Of a DNA stretch of 64,000 nt, positions 21,760 to 28,759 are shown piece by piece. Each line of letters opens with the position of its first letter. Position 1 is the stretch's first letter. The stretch comes from Bdellovibrio sp. SKB1291214 (GTDB lineage: Bacteria > Bdellovibrionota > Bdellovibrionia > Bdellovibrionales > Bdellovibrionaceae), in the NCBI RefSeq assembly GCF_002209355.2, contig NZ_CP106855.1, forward strand, positions 3,162,001-3,226,000, written 5' to 3'. A model generated the notes under the pieces. That model saw only the letters and a program-made list of their open reading frames with translations. It made no database searches and was not told the DNA's origin. A program made the translations under genes and the position numbers.

Positions 21760-22164
21760 ATGCGACTACGAACCATGACAAAACTAGTTCTATCGGCAGT
21801 ATTAGGCCTGGCCCTACTGGCTCCATTGAGCTGTGGGAAAGCCTATAACTCCTCCAGCTACGATGCTGATATTTACGGTGACGGTGGCGGCGGGACCCCT
21901 GCCTTTCAGGCGGCCCAAGCCATCCTTCGGGACAAATGTGCGACATGCCATACTCAAGCATCCCATGCTTCTTGGGGGAATATCTCTGAAGCCCAATTTA
22001 TTTCCTTAGGCCTTGTAACCGCAGGAAGCCTGACGGGTTCTCAGCTTTACACTAAAATCACAGGCAATAGCACCGGCATTCCCGGGAACATGCCAGTGGG
22101 CGGAGCCAACTTGTCTGCCACGGAACTGCAGACTTTAGAAACTTGGATTTTAAATATTCAATAA
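21760..22164 (+). CDS. Monohaem c-type cytochrome lipoprotein
   Basis: 134 residues with a lipoprotein signal (LALLAPLSCG, lipidated Cys near 25) and one haem-binding CATCH motif near residue 68 in AAQAILRDKCATCHTQASH. After it come a small helical region and a likely distal Met in GIPGNMPVGG, then a C-terminal helix (ATELQTLETWILNIQ), as in small class I cytochromes c. Start could also be the ATG at 21775. It converges with the cytochrome/DUF1501 operon and shares its terminator; a link to that system is inferred from proximity and composition. Confidence 0.85.
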   Translation: MRLRTMTKLVLSAVLGLALLAPLSCGKAYNSSSYDADIYGDGGGGTPAFQAAQAILRDKCATCHTQASHASWGNISEAQFISLGLVTAGSLTGSQLYTKITGNSTGIPGNMPVGGANLSATELQTLETWILNIQ

Positions 22165-22194
22165 AAAAAGGCCTGGGGAACCAGGCCTTTTTTG
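22163..22194. terminator. Bidirectional terminator
   Basis: GGCCTGG-GGAA-CCAGGCC with A-run and T-run flanks, between the convergent cytochrome gene and the minus-strand operon. Confidence 0.9.
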
Positions 22195-22217: not shown

Positions 22218-22832
22218 CTACATGCGATAGGCAAGACCGATCCGCCAGTACATCGTTTCGTCTTTGTATACCATCCCGAAACTTTGAATGTATTCAAACG
22301 AATTCCCGATGCGTGCACGAAGATCGGCGAATCCGCCCGTGATTAATTTAGATCCCGATGTCGCCGTCTGCCCGTTTGCATCTGTCGGCCACTCCGAATT
22401 TTTGTAGTATGTTGATAGATCAAAACCAAAATCTACCTTGGCACCCAAACGCCAGAACACTCTTGGCGTCACACGAAGGGCCATCCACGGCACGCGAGCT
22501 TGGAAGTATTTAAGCCCCGTATTGGCATCGCCGCCCACGGCGGTGCCCGAAGCCAAACCTCCACCAACTCCCCATCCCCATTTAGGATAATAAAAGTTTT
22601 TTTCAAGCCCCACGCCGAAGCCCCAATAGGAAGCTTTAGATTCTTGGGAGCCACCGGAAGTATTGTTGACGGCCAATTTCTCGACCCAAGTGTTCGCCTC
22701 ACCCGTCAATAACCAACGTTCCAGCGGAGCCGTTCTGGACGGTTTGGATGCTGCTGTCGTATTTGCCTTTTTTTGAGCAAAGCCTGAAAGGGACAATAAA
22801 ACGATCGAAGAAATGATGAACAGTTGTTTCAT
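22218..22832 (-). CDS. Small exported outer-membrane barrel protein
   Basis: 204 residues. Signal peptide MKQLFIISSIVLLSLSGFAQ, then a short Ala/Ser/Lys-rich segment and a barrel-like series of strands: YWGFGVGLEKNFYY, WGWGVGGGLASG, FWRLGAKVDFGFDL, LITGGFADLRARIG and YWRIGLAYRM. Last gene of the six-gene operon, nine bases after the haem-porin gene, so the two may work together in the outer membrane. No family recognised. Confidence 0.65.
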   Translation of the reverse strand: MKQLFIISSIVLLSLSGFAQKKANTTAASKPSRTAPLERWLLTGEANTWVEKLAVNNTSGGSQESKASYWGFGVGLEKNFYYPKWGWGVGGGLASGTAVGGDANTGLKYFQARVPWMALRVTPRVFWRLGAKVDFGFDLSTYYKNSEWPTDANGQTATSGSKLITGGFADLRARIGNSFEYIQSFGMVYKDETMYWRIGLAYRM

Positions 22833-22841
22833 GTCCGCCTC

Positions 22842-24011
22842 CTACAATGACAAGTGCAGTTGAGATTGCAACATCCAAGAATCTGGATTCACAGTCGTGT
22901 CGTTAATATTACGTCCATTGACGAAACCCGCACGGAATTCCACGCGTGGCATGGGGAACATCAACAATCCGAAAGACCATCGGAACATGTCCGTAGAATC
23001 TGATGACAACGTGGCATTGTAATATTCAATCTGACTTAGAATATTATAACCTCGAGTGATACCGATCAAATTTTGCAGCATCAAGTAGCCCCCGACTTTA
23101 TCACTTGGCGCTGACAACGGGCTGTCTTTTACAAAACCAATTTCAGTCAGCAAACTGTCGCCCTTATCAAACCCCAATTTTTGGTGGAATTCTAAACGCG
23201 TTTTTTCGACGTATTCATTTTTTGACTGCATTACTGCAAAGCCCAGACGATTTTTATCCGCAACGTCGAACTCCATCATCACGGACAAACCTTTTTGGCG
23301 AATATCCGCGTCCTCTTGAAGCAAATTCCCTACGAACAAATTGCCGGTGATTTCCCAGCCATCCGCATAGTACTGCGTGATCACACCCGTAGATTGGTCA
23401 TTTTGCGCCACATCTGTGACCGAGCGGCTGTAGGATGTATGGTCGGCAGTGCGAATACCGAAGACCTTATCCATCAAGCCCACATAGGTGTAGAATTTCT
23501 TATTCACCTGCCAGCGGAAATAATGTTCGCGGGAAATAAAGTTTTTATTGTCAGGATCATTGATATTAGCACGCGAGGCTGGTGTTGGCTGGTAACCGCC
23601 CGACAACATCAGAAGGTACTTAGCGCTTCGATCGAACTGAATTGCGACGTTGGCATCCGCTTGCATCGTCACATATTTGTTAACCGCTGCTGGATTCGCC
23701 GGATTGTTTTGAAAGTAAAGACCGCGGTATTTAATACCAGGGCGCACCCACCAAGGAAGTTGAGTTGAACCCAAGAATCCAGATTTTGCGGCGATCTCGT
23801 CCTCTTGAAGCTTGTCATTGAAAATCGCGCGAGAAGCGATTTCTGTCGTAAACAAGGCGCGACCATAATCAGTCAAAGCGCCGTTACCTTGGCCGTTGTA
23901 GTGACAAGTTATGCATGTGTTGTATCCGTAAGAAATAAAGTCGGGATACGCTTGGCTGGCTTCAGGAACTAATATTCCTGCAAGAAGCAATATCGGAAGA
24001 AGTAAAATCAC
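22842..24011 (-). CDS. Outer-membrane porin-like protein with an N-terminal c-haem site
   Basis: 389 residues from a GTG at 24011 with GAGG seven bases upstream. A signal peptide ends near EASQA and is followed by YPDFISYGYN and CITCHYNGQGNG, a single covalent haem site, then LTDYGRALF. The rest (about 60-389) is a series of amphipathic strands ending LQSQLHLSL, consistent with a 12- to 16-stranded barrel. Proteins with this short haem head and barrel occur in several environmental Gram-negatives, but their role is not established as far as I know. Position among cytochromes suggests electron transfer across the outer membrane. Confidence 0.75.
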   Translation of the reverse strand: MILLLPILLLAGILVPEASQAYPDFISYGYNTCITCHYNGQGNGALTDYGRALFTTEIASRAIFNDKLQEDEIAAKSGFLGSTQLPWWVRPGIKYRGLYFQNNPANPAAVNKYVTMQADANVAIQFDRSAKYLLMLSGGYQPTPASRANINDPDNKNFISREHYFRWQVNKKFYTYVGLMDKVFGIRTADHTSYSRSVTDVAQNDQSTGVITQYYADGWEITGNLFVGNLLQEDADIRQKGLSVMMEFDVADKNRLGFAVMQSKNEYVEKTRLEFHQKLGFDKGDSLLTEIGFVKDSPLSAPSDKVGGYLMLQNLIGITRGYNILSQIEYYNATLSSDSTDMFRWSFGLLMFPMPRVEFRAGFVNGRNINDTTVNPDSWMLQSQLHLSL

Positions 24012-24124
24012 GCTGCAACCTCATTTGATGGACTAGACTCTCAATTAGTTTTTAAGTCTATGGGTCCAGCGAATGAGGCGCAAATCAAAAGCTTACAAAT
24101 GAACTGAGTTTTTTGCGGCGCTCC

Positions 24125-25300
24125 TTACTGAGGAGCACCGTTAGCGACCCATACATCCACCAACGTACGCTGTGCTTCAGACAGAATACCACTTGTTGGC
24201 ATCGGGTTATTGGCATTGTTCATACGCGCTTGGATATTTGCGGCTGCTGTTTTTGCATTCGCATATTTTGTCAAATCCAAGCCGCCACGAGCATTACTTG
24301 AGCTATGACAACTTACACAGCTATTTGCAAACACGCCACCGACTGCAATCAACTGTGAATATGTCACATTCGTTGGAGTCGCCGTGGCAGTCGCCGTCGC
24401 TGTTGGAGTCGCTGATGGAGACGTCGCCGTCGTTGAAATCAAGTTCTCATACTTGATTGCGATCACATCGTTTGCATTTGGAGTCATTACCACGATTGAA
24501 TTCGCCGTGTTCGCAGACAAATTTGTCGCTGTCGTCGTGGAGATGATTGCGTTCACGTTTTGGTAAGTCGTCAATTCTTCAGCTTTCGTATCGTTGATAT
24601 AAACGCTGACGTTTTGTACTTGATAGCTTCCTGACGAAGTATTTTTTAAACGCAAAGTCGGATTTCTAAATTCGTAACCATATGTCGTACCGTTCAAGAT
24701 GTAACGACGGATATCAATAGTGGCCGTCAACGGAGCTGTCGGAGTCGCCGCAGCCAAATCAAATGTCATAGTTTGGAAAGCTGTTGTCGTCGCTAAATTT
24801 GCCGGTACTTTCACTGAAGCCGATTTAACCGCTTTAGTTGGAGCGGTTGCTCCTGAATCAACCAAACATGCCGCATATTTATCTTGAGCTGCACCCCAGT
24901 AAGAGTTGATCTCGGTGATGCGAGCTTGATTTGCAGGACCGGTGTTTGGTGGCTTATGTGAAGCGTTCACAGCTTGAGAAGAAATCTTAGATGCACCTAC
25001 AGAAGCAAATGCTGTATAAGAACTTATCAAATCTGTACTACCGAAAACTCCTAAACCCACACCACCTGCGACGTGACATCCACCACAAGTTTGCGTAAGA
25101 AACGGATGGAATGTGGAAGCGTAGACCTTTACGATCGCCTCTTCGCAACTTTCGCCCGCGGCAGTGGAAAATTCAACACTTCCACCCGAGACACTCATGT
25201 TAGCCATTGTGAAACCTTCACCACAGTTGTTAAAGGCAACAACTGTAATGACCGCGCCAACGGCCCATAGAACTTTTTGAACAATCTTTGAGCTTCCCAC
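24125..25300 (-). CDS. Dihaem c-type cytochrome lipoprotein
   Basis: 391 residues from a GTG at 25300 behind a GGGGGA ribosome binding site. The N-terminus VVAFNNCGEGF is a lipoprotein signal, nearly the same as in the 26798 gene. Haem site one is CGGCHVAGG near residue 73; haem site two is CVSCHSSSN near 330, followed by MNNANNPMPTSGILS, a likely Met ligand, and a cytochrome c end helix. Between them is a beta-rich region, then a Ser/Thr/Ala/Pro linker (SPSATPTATATATATPTN). I infer two electron-transfer domains tethered at the membrane. Confidence 0.8.
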   Translation of the reverse strand: MGSSKIVQKVLWAVGAVITVVAFNNCGEGFTMANMSVSGGSVEFSTAAGESCEEAIVKVYASTFHPFLTQTCGGCHVAGGVGLGVFGSTDLISSYTAFASVGASKISSQAVNASHKPPNTGPANQARITEINSYWGAAQDKYAACLVDSGATAPTKAVKSASVKVPANLATTTAFQTMTFDLAAATPTAPLTATIDIRRYILNGTTYGYEFRNPTLRLKNTSSGSYQVQNVSVYINDTKAEELTTYQNVNAIISTTTATNLSANTANSIVVMTPNANDVIAIKYENLISTTATSPSATPTATATATATPTNVTYSQLIAVGGVFANSCVSCHSSSNARGGLDLTKYANAKTAAANIQARMNNANNPMPTSGILSEAQRTLVDVWVANGAPQ

Positions 25301-25355
25301 TCATTCCCCCAAACACAAACACATACAAATACGTTAGAACCCCGAATCGCCGAGC

Positions 25356-26756
25356 CTAAGCGACCTTGATCACTTGAGCCAATTGTGACGTATCTAAGAT
25401 ACGACCGCCAACTTTATCGAACAGGTCCATACGTTTATTCGCCTGACACCAGTTTGCAAATACTGCTGCGGCAACAAGCTCTGGATTTGAGCCTGTCACA
25501 AACTTGGGGTCGGAAGCCTGATTATCATTGAACTGACCCACTTGGTAGTCGCTGACTGCTGGACGGCCTTTCGGATCGAAATAAAATAAATAGGCAACAC
25601 CATGACCACGGTCACCTGCCCAACCTGCGTCCCGTGCTTCAGAGGCATCACTGTACACAGAGCCGTCGGAAACAACCATGATCATCAGAGGCTTACCAAG
25701 TACAGCCGCGCTTTGTAGCATACGACCTACTTCAGTTCCCGCATCAAGATCTCTTCGGTCCCCTGAAGTACGTGTGCCATCGTGGTAATCATAACCACCC
25801 AATTCGATGTTTGCAGCACCCGCTTGACCAAGAAGCGTATTGTATAGCATCGAACCAAACAGCAATTCACGATTGGTATTTGCAGTATTCGCGTTGATTC
25901 CCCAAACATTTGCAAATGTCGTGTTCGAACGAGGATCAACAACCGATGCACCTGCCGCAAGAACGTCAACATTCTTGATGCCTGCGCAGTCCAAAACGGT
26001 TTTTACTGTTGAACCACCGTCAAGGGAGGCAATCTTACGAGTCTGTGACTCCGTCAGATTACTCATTAATTTCACAAGCGAGTTTTTCTGAGAGGCATTC
26101 AAAGCGGTTCCTATCGACGCACTGTAACCGATAGACGTCAGAAGAGAACTGTAATTTTTAACTACGAGAGGTGCCGGAGGCGGAGCAAAACCAGCAGCCT
26201 GATTCATGCCTGTGCGCGTATTACGGTTTCCCATGTTAGGGATATTCGCACCAACAAGCCCCGCTTTTGTAACGGCACCAGAAACGTCAAATTTATTCTG
26301 GTTAGTATCATTCTGAGAGTCCACGCAAAATCCAATAAATGCAGTCTTGGCCATCGTTGTGGCGTTGGCGCCTGCCTTAATTCCTGCAAGGAATTTACTA
26401 ATACCATTGCCAGCCCACGGTGAATTACCAAAGGCACGTTCTATTGGAACTTGATTATTCCCAAGTCCCAATTTGGAATAAGTTGCTATAGGCTGACGAG
26501 CAGCATTCTGAGGGACGTAATTAGCAGCCATGGCAGCGCCACCGCTCAAACTAACGGTCACCATTGGAATCAACGACGCAGGCACCGGACAGTCTGCTGC
26601 TTGAGCGTTATTCCCAAGCATCAAAGAGACCCAGTTGGGTACGAATACGTTTGCTGCGAAAGGAATGATACCCGCAGAAAGGAAATCGCGGCGAGTGACT
26701 GGCTTTTTATGTCCTGTTGCTGCCCAAAATGGGATCTCTTTTTTATCTTTTGCCAT
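25356..26756 (-). CDS. Tat-exported DUF1501-like protein
   Basis: 466 residues. The start KKPVTRRDFLSAGIIPFAA is a twin-arginine signal, so the protein is exported folded, often with a cofactor. The body resembles the DUF1501 family of the alkaline-phosphatase/sulfatase fold: IELGGYDYHDGTR (GGxDxH) and MVVSDGSVYSD followed by GDRGHGVAY (compare SEFGR and the later His motif). If so, it is a predicted metal-dependent hydrolase or binding protein of unknown substrate. DUF1501 proteins usually pair with cytochrome-bearing partners, as here. Family assignment is moderate. Confidence 0.65.
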   Translation of the reverse strand: MAKDKKEIPFWAATGHKKPVTRRDFLSAGIIPFAANVFVPNWVSLMLGNNAQAADCPVPASLIPMVTVSLSGGAAMAANYVPQNAARQPIATYSKLGLGNNQVPIERAFGNSPWAGNGISKFLAGIKAGANATTMAKTAFIGFCVDSQNDTNQNKFDVSGAVTKAGLVGANIPNMGNRNTRTGMNQAAGFAPPPAPLVVKNYSSLLTSIGYSASIGTALNASQKNSLVKLMSNLTESQTRKIASLDGGSTVKTVLDCAGIKNVDVLAAGASVVDPRSNTTFANVWGINANTANTNRELLFGSMLYNTLLGQAGAANIELGGYDYHDGTRTSGDRRDLDAGTEVGRMLQSAAVLGKPLMIMVVSDGSVYSDASEARDAGWAGDRGHGVAYLFYFDPKGRPAVSDYQVGQFNDNQASDPKFVTGSNPELVAAAVFANWCQANKRMDLFDKVGGRILDTSQLAQVIKVA

Positions 26757-26797
26757 ATTCTCCCCCAGAGAACAAAAAAATCAAAATAAATAACAAA

Positions 26798-27466
26798 CTA
26801 GTATGAAAGCGCATCGAAGCTGGAAAGCATCGCTGAACATGTCGCTAGCATTAAATTGCTAGTCGACGCAGCTTGCGTGCGAGCATTCGCCGCTAAAGCT
26901 GTGATAAATTCAGATTTGAACGTATTCAAGAGAGCCAATTCCTCCGCCGTTTCATTGCGTCCCCAATATGAACGGGCCATACCACGTACACTCGAATTGA
27001 ACTGAGCGTCTGTCACTGATGAAACGCCAGTCGCAAAATTCACACTACCAAAAAAGGCGCGTGAAGCTGCCGCCTGTGCTTTTTCAGTTGTAAGAACGGA
27101 GTTACAAACTTCGCCCGCCAGACTTGTAGCACCCAACATTAACGGTGGGTTTGCCATACTCAAGTCATTACCCGCTGCCAAAGCGCCATAACGGTTGTCA
27201 TATTCCGCTGCAAGCGCAGGACTTACCGTCGTTACGTTTGAAACTCTCAGCATAGAAGCAAACGTTTGTTCTGCGGATAACAAAGCATATGGTATACCCA
27301 ATGCTTCAGAGTCAGTCACTTCAGCCGGAGTGGAGCTTGAACTTGTAGAAGACAGGTCTGAAGAACCCTCCAAATCACCGTAACGACCACAGTTATTAAA
27401 ACTGACTGTAATCAAAAACATTGAAGGCAGAACATAAAATAAAAATTTAACTGTTTTCTTATTCAT
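26798..27466 (-). CDS. Lipoprotein of the cytochrome operon
   Basis: About 222 residues from the ATG at 27466 behind GGAGGGG. Lipobox region ITVSFNNCG gives a lipidated Cys near 28; a Ser/Thr-rich spacer follows. The mature domain is helical, with two Cys (GEVCNSVL and MLATCSAM) and no CxxCH. The signal is very like that of the dihaem lipoprotein in the same operon. Length and position (between the CKGCH protein and the DUF1501 protein) suggest an assembly or docking partner. No family recognised. Confidence 0.65.
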   Translation of the reverse strand: MNKKTVKFLFYVLPSMFLITVSFNNCGRYGDLEGSSDLSSTSSSSTPAEVTDSEALGIPYALLSAEQTFASMLRVSNVTTVSPALAAEYDNRYGALAAGNDLSMANPPLMLGATSLAGEVCNSVLTTEKAQAAASRAFFGSVNFATGVSSVTDAQFNSSVRGMARSYWGRNETAEELALLNTFKSEFITALAANARTQAASTSNLMLATCSAMLSSFDALSY

Positions 27467-27478
27467 GAGCCCCTCCAA

Positions 27479-28759
27479 TTAATCCAAGCAACCAGGTTTA
27501 GCAGCGATCTTTTCAAAGAGCGATTTGATTTTGTAGCTGCTGTTCTCGAACTCCACGCCCCAAGTTTTTAGCAAGTCCGCGTTCGTAGTCGCGTCGAAAG
27601 ATTTTCTGCACACAGTCTCATAAACTTGTTTCGCCATACACTGACTAAAGCGGCGAGAGTTAGACACGACGGTTGCGAAACCCTTTGCTCCATTACCGCT
27701 TAAGGCATTGCCGCGCCATTCAAAGAAATTTGCATTTTTTTCGCGAATCGCATTATTCACAAATGAGTCATCTGTCGTAACATATCCAGATGGAAATACC
27801 GTGTTGTTACGATTCATTTTTATAACCACACCCGTTGTGGTGTTCACGGCGATTTGATAATCACCAGAACTACCTGCACGAGTGTTCACATCCGAATGCT
27901 TAATTCCAAGTGGAGTATCAGCTACGTCCCACTTCGCGAAAGCACCACGGAAACCGTCCATCACCGTGTGGCAACCCTTACAGGAAGTAAGGAACTTATT
28001 ATGATCACCACCTGGGAAACGGTCGATATCGCGACCAATACGCATATCTGCGCCACCCGTGTCTGCCCATTCATTCAAAGGCACGCACATAAACTCACGG
28101 AAAGTATACTCAACCAAACGACGGTTTGTACCCATTAACGCATGGGCACTCATGAAAGCACGAAGAGTAATCACTCCTGCTGGGTCAGGATTCGCTACCG
28201 AAGTGGTGGCACTTGTAGCAATTCGTTGTCCATCGACTCGCACCAGGTTTTTTGCCAAATTCACACGATTAGTTTCTAAATCGATATAGTGATTATTTGA
28301 TATCAGCAAGTCAGGTACGAGATCACCACGAATACCCGTAAGATTCGTATTACCCCTGTAATAGAAGTTACCTTGCAACAATTGACGAGCATCGAGACCG
28401 TCACGCGTTACCCCAATATAGGCTGCAACCATGTCATTAAGCTCAGTCTTAATTGTTTCATCACGTGTCGAAAGCTTCAACGCCCACAACTTCACCGTGA
28501 TATTCAGGAAGTTGTCATCAGCTGTCGCGATTTTTGCGGCACCTTCAACATCCCCTTTATTTAACAACGTCACCATCTGCGCAACTACCGGACTGTCAGC
28601 AGGAAGTTTTGTTCCTGTTAAACGTTCATAAATTTTTCTGGCTTTCAGTTCCATTGCGGAAGGATCTGCGGCTGTAAGAACGGGTTTAACTTGCGCGTTC
28701 GCAGAGTTAGTCCCTATTCCCATTCCTAGTATAATAAGTGGTAAAAGTAAGAATCGCAT
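27479..28759 (-). CDS. Exported monohaem protein, first gene of the operon
   Basis: About 426 residues from the ATG at 28759 behind a GGGGGG ribosome binding site; signal peptide MRFLLLPLIILGMGIGTNSANA. A single haem motif CKGCHTVMDG lies near residue 260. Other conserved-looking segments are KIYERLTGTKLP near the N-terminus, FREFMCVPLNEWAD, and a C-terminal region with paired Cys (SQCMAKQVYETVCRKSF). The layout, with a large helical N-terminal part, haem, then a Cys-rich C-terminus, recalls proteins that accompany DUF1501 family members (DUF1588/1592-type). That family link is a guess. Leads a six-gene operon. Confidence 0.7.
   Translation of the reverse strand: MRFLLLPLIILGMGIGTNSANAQVKPVLTAADPSAMELKARKIYERLTGTKLPADSPVVAQMVTLLNKGDVEGAAKIATADDNFLNITVKLWALKLSTRDETIKTELNDMVAAYIGVTRDGLDARQLLQGNFYYRGNTNLTGIRGDLVPDLLISNNHYIDLETNRVNLAKNLVRVDGQRIATSATTSVANPDPAGVITLRAFMSAHALMGTNRRLVEYTFREFMCVPLNEWADTGGADMRIGRDIDRFPGGDHNKFLTSCKGCHTVMDGFRGAFAKWDVADTPLGIKHSDVNTRAGSSGDYQIAVNTTTGVVIKMNRNNTVFPSGYVTTDDSFVNNAIREKNANFFEWRGNALSGNGAKGFATVVSNSRRFSQCMAKQVYETVCRKSFDATTNADLLKTWGVEFENSSYKIKSLFEKIAAKPGCLD

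Follow-up and report, generated by a model that had tools for sequence, protein, structure and literature searches.

Genes and features of the locus

We analysed a 64-kb stretch of the Bdellovibrio sp. SKB1291214 genome (the window; positions 3,162,001 to 3,226,000 of NZ_CP106855.1, a single contig of 3,681,188 bp) and characterised in it a cluster of seven genes, A to G, several of which encode exported haem proteins. Genes A to F lie on the minus strand and are lettered in the order of transcription, and G lies on the plus strand. An earlier note, made from the sequence alone, had described A to F as a six-gene operon; all six open reading frames (ORFs) are present as listed, and the exported character of their products was upheld, with signal peptides assigned by eye. 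A (28759-27479) is an exported monohaem protein with a CKGCH motif at 27968-27982 and a distant relative of the PSCyt3/PSD2 (DUF1588/DUF1585) families. B (27466-26798) is a lipoprotein and a homologue of the C-terminal domain of a gammaproteobacterial protein, here called X. C (26756-25356) carries a twin-arginine translocation (Tat) signal, TRRDFL, whose twin arginine is invariant in 53 homologues; it has an alkaline-phosphatase-superfamily fold and is distantly DUF1501-like. D (25300-24125) is a dihaem lipoprotein (CGGCH at 25073-25087, CVSCH at 24305-24319) that has the lipobox FNNCG in common with B. E (24011-22842) fuses a monohaem cytochrome (CITCH at 23901-23915) to a 16-strand outer-membrane porin in a Cyc2-like build, and F (22832-22218) is a small exported protein and the constant partner of E. 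Converging on F from the plus strand, the small haem lipoprotein G (21760-22164; CATCH at 21937-21951) is a seventh member that was absent from the earlier six-gene set and travels with E-F. The haem motifs, the single Tat signal and the shared lipobox are thus as the earlier note had read them. So are the G-rich Shine-Dalgarno sequences before the genes and the short gaps, which measure 12 bp for A-B (B starts with ATG at 27466), about 40 bp for B-C, 55 bp for C-D and 9 bp for E-F. Besides A, D and E, the only long ORFs of the window with a CxxCH motif are G and two located elsewhere.

The seven genes are real and under constraint. The haem cysteines and histidine are invariant across 48 homologues of A, 26 of D and 26 of E, and all seven genes show strong purifying selection in comparison with a relative of 75-87% identity (G022). 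The ratio of nonsynonymous to synonymous substitution rates (dN/dS) was 0.04-0.09 for the five genes with a computable dS, which was itself near or at saturation; synonymous sites of C and F were saturated. Several haem proteins are found at the locus, and none of A to G is an enzyme of a known pathway. Sequence searches against solved structures gave no match for A, C and E, and led from D to generic cytochromes only.

The cluster consists of two modules that stay together in varied arrangements

The six exported genes form two modules, ABCD and EF (with G), and are not one pathway unit by descent. Conservation of the six-gene order, proposed earlier, was checked across genomes, and E-F lies co-directionally and directly after D in four genomes only (the window's own, G011, G012 and G022); we therefore rejected a single six-gene operon as the conserved unit, even though the two modules are otherwise strongly co-localised. 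Among 60 relatives, homologues of C occur in 34, and the order A-B-C-D is kept throughout the Bdellovibrionales at loci with available flanks, with D diverged or duplicated in many. E is present in 45 of the same 60 relatives, often without ABCD of the window type, and its family was found in 72 of 114 genomes sampled across the Bdellovibrionota.

We read 41 E loci. Some of them had been chosen for a known DUF1501 match nearby, a bias limited by later completion of the set, which covers essentially all strong E matches in the 60 relatives. Of the 41 loci, 38 have a member of the F family and 32 have G or its longer version, G'. Nearby A+C pairs were seen at 27 of them: 13 belong to the window type and the other 14 to a second type, A'C'B'. 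Against an expectation of 2-5% per locus, the binomial tail probability falls below 1e-24, a figure that ignores shared ancestry. Since the genomes are related, the 27 loci are not independent events, and a stronger argument comes from how varied the arrangements are. At 9 of the 13 ABCD-type loci, E-F departs from the co-directional position immediately after D: it is divergent from A in G024 and G027, convergent on D in G029, past G or G' and on the other strand in G002, G006, G016, G023 and G028, and upstream of A on the same strand in G032. At least five relative arrangements thus keep the modules together, so that the linkage amounts to more than one inherited operon.

The host genome holds further copies. 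A second E and F (G000:C1:2210543-2211700, L172), with E 43% identical, has no A+C pair within about 9 kb and belongs to the E lineage that neighbours type-2 operons in other Bdellovibrio. A third system of this kind (G000:C1:460400-464000, L191:5381-9022) has a 711-residue lipoprotein with two haem motifs and, after it, an HXXSHH/DUF1552 protein exported by Tat.

ABCD is a divergent member of a known but uncharacterised kind

Homologues of A match PSD2/DUF1585 (PF07624) in 31 of 48 cases (best E-value 3e-6) and PSCyt3/DUF1588 (PF07627) in 24 of 48 (best E-value 2e-4), both below the curated cut-off, and A itself has no Pfam match to PSCyt3/PSD2. Like PSCyt3/PSD2 proteins, it carries a single CxxCH haem motif and has a partner gene whose product is exported by Tat. 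The C-terminal part of D is a c-type cytochrome domain (Pfam Cytochrome_CBB3, with a score just over the cut-off), and 14 of its 26 homologues weakly match PSCyt1; B matches no Pfam family. Planctomycetes and verrucomicrobia have many PSCyt/PSD genes with DUF1501/DUF1552 partners, all of uncharacterised function (PMC5615132, PMC2754498). The weak similarity of A and D to these domain families assigns the core to that known but uncharacterised kind. The earlier idea of a haem-rich, envelope-wide system without a described pathway holds, with the qualification that its core is not of a new kind.

The DUF1501-like label given to C stands as a distant resemblance, below the level of a Pfam match. 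C matched no Pfam family. With the Pfam DUF1501 model (PF07394), neither C nor its 53 homologues gave a match at E-values up to 1, and there was no match anywhere in its own genome. Profile-profile comparison, however, aligned C with DUF1501 at a probability of 77% (E-value 2e-5 over 350 columns), with DUF1552 nearly equal at 66%. The AlphaFold2 model of C (predicted local distance difference test score, pLDDT, 81) adopts an alkaline-phosphatase-superfamily fold, and its best structural matches are NPP, sulfatases and MCR-1 (Z 11-12.5, 217-240 residues aligned). D323, H325, D364 and D382 are invariant in the 53 homologues, and the conserved DxH, SDG and D positions align with their DUF1501 counterparts. 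In this alignment, C has alanine where DUF1501 proteins carry an aspartate after the first strand, GGA replacing GGxD. A tree of the C homologues from the 60 relatives splits Bdellovibrio: the window's clade includes a member of another genus (G035), and ten other Bdellovibrio form a separate, long-stemmed clade. This split may reflect either horizontal transfer or an old duplication with loss. In the second Bdellovibrio clade, A has 614-623 residues, with about 190 extra before the C-terminal part (L081:10461-12305, L082:10973-12844, L087:10962-12812 and L092:5139-6989).

The A-C pair persists in Gamma- and Deltaproteobacteria, where it flanks the large lipoprotein X, which as a rule carries two haem motifs and a lectin-like Laminin_G_3 domain. 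The C-terminal 170 residues of X match B (profile probability 97%, E-value 1e-10) and an earlier part matches D (probability 95%), with reversed controls giving nothing; four loci have B as a gene of its own, like the window. That B and D are fused in one lineage and split in another supports their joint action with A and C. The core pair occurs in Alteromonas and other Gammaproteobacteria and so is not tied to predation; we accordingly rejected a predator-specific function of the core. Upstream of the gammaproteobacterial A-X-C loci, on the opposite strand, lies a gene for a large haem protein of the beta-propeller type, whose middle domain is of the hydrazine-synthase-alpha family (PF18582; L060:179-2968, with counterparts in L045, L049, L057, L059, L061, L064, L065, L066, L068, L069 and L072). 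A search for this HZS_alpha-like protein in the 60 relatives gave no match, and the positive control of that search was equally without one.

The second type of operon, A'C'B'G', found in other Bdellovibrio (e.g. L173, L174 and L176), has E-F neighbours just as the window type does. Profile probabilities relate A to A' at 97%, B to B' at 95% and D to G' at 95%; C and C' reach only 40% directly, and both lead to DUF1501. The two types differ in gene order, which is A'-C'-B' and usually then G', and in that C' is matched by the Pfam DUF1501 model while the window's C is not. A' matches PSD2 in Pfam. The lipobox FNNCG has asparagine beside the cysteine, where G, A or S is usual, and the pattern FxNC[GS] recurs in B', G' and further lipoproteins of the genus. 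It has 22 matches in the window's own genome against 12 for the reversed pattern; a lipoprotein-start filter kept three of these matches but missed D, so the count is not a reliable one.

E follows the architectural plan of Cyc2

E has 389 residues, with CITCH at residues 33-37, and its AlphaFold2 model forms a barrel of 16 strands, in agreement with the barrel predicted earlier; OprP, OprO and chitoporin are among its porin matches. OprP and OprO have also been used to describe the porin of Cyc2 (PMC8406198). Like Cyc2, E places a single CXXCH N-terminal to a 16-strand porin in a chain of at least 365 residues. The diagnostic motif of Cyc2 is AXPXFAR[Q/K][T/Y] (PMC8406198), and gammaproteobacterial sequences fetched through this motif served as our comparison set. 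Their N-terminus reads AxPxFARQTGxxCxxCHxxxPxLTxFGRxF, and the mature N-terminus of E is AYPDFISYGYNTCITCHYNGQGNGALTDYGR. E lacks the diagnostic motif, with AYPDFISYGY in its place (family consensus AYPDFIGYGY), and likewise lacks the Cyc2 PXL motif four residues after CXXCH; the leucine of its GAL/GPL lies 9 residues past CxxCH, against about 6 in the Cyc2 set. The combination of PxF-x7-CxxCH with L[TN]x[FY]G was found in 26 E sequences and 11 Cyc2 contexts, and in none of about 306 other distinct CxxCH contexts examined; its PxF part had selected the Cyc2 set and its L[TN]x[FY]G part had not.

An E profile run against genomes carrying Cyc2 did not find Cyc2. The full-length E-Cyc2 comparison reached 77% with a reversed control of nil, but D-Cyc2 reached 42%, and for this reason we do not claim homology of E and Cyc2. 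With the haem domain alone the comparison was not discriminating, as E scored D and G' as high as Cyc2. Given the absent motif, the non-specific haem-domain comparison and the silent E profile, we do not assign E to Cyc2 and conclude that it is built on the Cyc2 architectural plan. Many Bdellovibrionota genomes also have a second E subfamily, which is distant and has shorter frames (about 360-410 residues).

E-F probably has its own promoter

The strong ribosome-binding sites and short gaps had suggested a single transcript, which the D-E junction does not bear out. The D-E intergenic stretch (24012-24124, minus strand) measures 113 bp and is a probable separate promoter and leader of E-F. G035, in which E has no D upstream and the next gene is divergent, retains parts of this sequence ahead of E; E-F is thus probably transcribed from a promoter of its own, so that a common transcript for all six genes is not required, although read-through from D may occur. 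The stretch folds better than its shuffles (z -3.3), and a stem of the predicted hairpin pairs with the E ribosome-binding site, so that the intergenic RNA is a possible translational control element. Between F and G, a bidirectional intrinsic terminator (22164-22193; perfect 13-bp stem, 4-nt loop; fold z -4.7 and -5.8) is predicted to be able to end both transcripts. It was identified through an inverted-repeat search and folding. Promoter and terminator scans were at chance level, and the terminator scan missed this hairpin because its T-run is part of the stem.

Discussion

Our preferred reading, to which we give a probability of about 40%, is that ABCD, EF and G together make up a redox system of the cell envelope that belongs to the PSCyt/DUF1501 kind and in which E is the redox port in the outer membrane. 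The gene sets, the haem motifs, the folds of C and E, the linkage of the modules and the B+D fusion were established by computation. Complex formation, electron flow and its direction, and catalysis in ABCD-EFG, all of which we infer, would proceed as follows. C, exported folded by Tat, would join A as a periplasmic core, and the lipoproteins B and D would anchor it, giving a periplasmic complex attached to the outer membrane that oxidises or reduces some substrate. The haem domains of A, D and G could relay electrons, with G as a small carrier, and the cytochrome-porin E would be the port joining this chain to the outside. By analogy with Cyc2, we favour an inward flow, in which electrons from an external donor would pass E and G on their way to the periplasmic cytochromes. 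In favour of the scheme are the A-B-C-D order kept across the Bdellovibrionales, the X protein that unites counterparts of B and D between A and C, the recurrent proximity of the two modules in varied arrangements, the porin fold and Cyc2-like N-terminal layout of E, and the gathering of several haem proteins at a locus that encodes no known-pathway enzyme.

Several points weigh against this scheme. C is without the first-strand aspartate of DUF1501 and may not be an active enzyme. With one haem per cytochrome domain, a long electron relay is less obvious than in multihaem conduits. Moreover, an A+C pair is missing from the surroundings of 14 of the 41 E loci, and some genomes (G026, G045, G046, G058 and G059) carry ABCD but no E.

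Among the alternatives, glycan or ester processing survives best, though we regard it as unlikely. Here C and lectin-like domains would act on a polymer, E would be mainly an uptake porin and the haem domains an oxidase component for that polymer, in place of a conduit carrying electrons to the outside. This accords with verrucomicrobial PSCyt genes near sulfatase genes, some encoding carbohydrate-binding modules (PMC5615132), with the Laminin_G_3 lectin domain of gammaproteobacterial X, and with the resemblance of E to the substrate-selective porins OprP, OprO and chitoporin. Yet the cluster contains no carbohydrate-active enzyme, Laminin_G_3 was not found in D or G', and the haem of E, invariant across the family, would be needless for a mere uptake porin.

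Less probable again is a non-catalytic system for envelope assembly, sensing or stress, in which haem would be a redox sensor and C a pseudo-enzyme scaffold. C would suit such a role, as it keeps the DxH, SDG and D motifs while missing the first metal-site aspartate of DUF1501, and a Rhodopirellula PSD1/PSC2 protein is a proposed target of an extracytoplasmic function (ECF) sigma factor that is raised in three stress conditions (PMC2754498). The four or five haem-bearing domains nevertheless exceed the needs of a sensor, and no regulator or anti-sigma factor is encoded among the ORFs of the cluster.

That ABCD and EFG are two unrelated systems, adjacent by chance, would fit their arrangement as separate transcription units in most genomes and the occurrence of each at times without the other; we hold this to be quite improbable, given that 27 of 41 E loci have in their neighbourhood an A+C pair of one or other of two distinct types, and that the arrangements number at least five. 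Least credible is a true Cyc2 in a ferrous-iron oxidation pathway, for despite the Cyc2 architecture, AxPxF-x7-CxxCH spacing and L[TN]x[FY]GR block of E, the family has IGYGY where the published motif would stand, its profile misses Cyc2 in genomes carrying Cyc2, and the haem domain alone gives Cyc2 no edge over other cytochromes.

The side-by-side modules in many relatives suggest one electron-moving system in the cell envelope, and the recurrent haem-porin neighbourhood offers the first concrete, testable placement of a PSCyt/DUF1501 system, as redox and reaching the outer membrane, in bacteria in which gene deletion is routine. We put forward as a doubtful generalisation that PSCyt/DUF1501 systems may be electron-transfer pathways from the outer membrane to the periplasm, whose outer gate in the Bdellovibrionota would be Cyc2-like cytochrome-porins distinct from Cyc2. 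For surveys of iron oxidation that rely on marker genes, it matters that the E family shares the build of Cyc2 yet lacks the diagnostic motif. In the literature searched, with most subscription journals outside its scope, we found neither the cytochrome-porin link nor the B+D fusion nor the divergent Bdellovibrionota type-1 family, no paper on Bdellovibrio with DUF1501 and none relevant on Bdellovibrio with Cyc2.

Comparison with known systems

With the PSCyt/PSD and DUF1501/DUF1552 systems, the locus shares a monohaem, PSCyt3/PSD2-like exported A beside a Tat-exported C, and a PSCyt1-like haem in D. It differs in that A, C and D do not reach the curated cut-offs of Pfam, in the extra conserved lipoprotein B, and in the recurrent link to an outer-membrane cytochrome-porin, which is not described in the papers found. 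With Cyc2, E has in common the signal peptide, an N-terminal CxxCH at equal distance from AxPxF and an OprP/OprO-like 16-strand barrel. In contrast to Cyc2, it lacks AR[Q/K][T/Y], its loop after CxxCH is about 3 residues longer, its barrel has no similarity detectable by profile, and its genomic partner is a PSCyt/DUF1501-like operon. Complexes of the MtrCAB/PioAB type, like E, combine a porin with haem in the outer membrane. Those complexes hold a separate multihaem cytochrome inside the porin, whereas the single haem of E is part of the porin chain itself.

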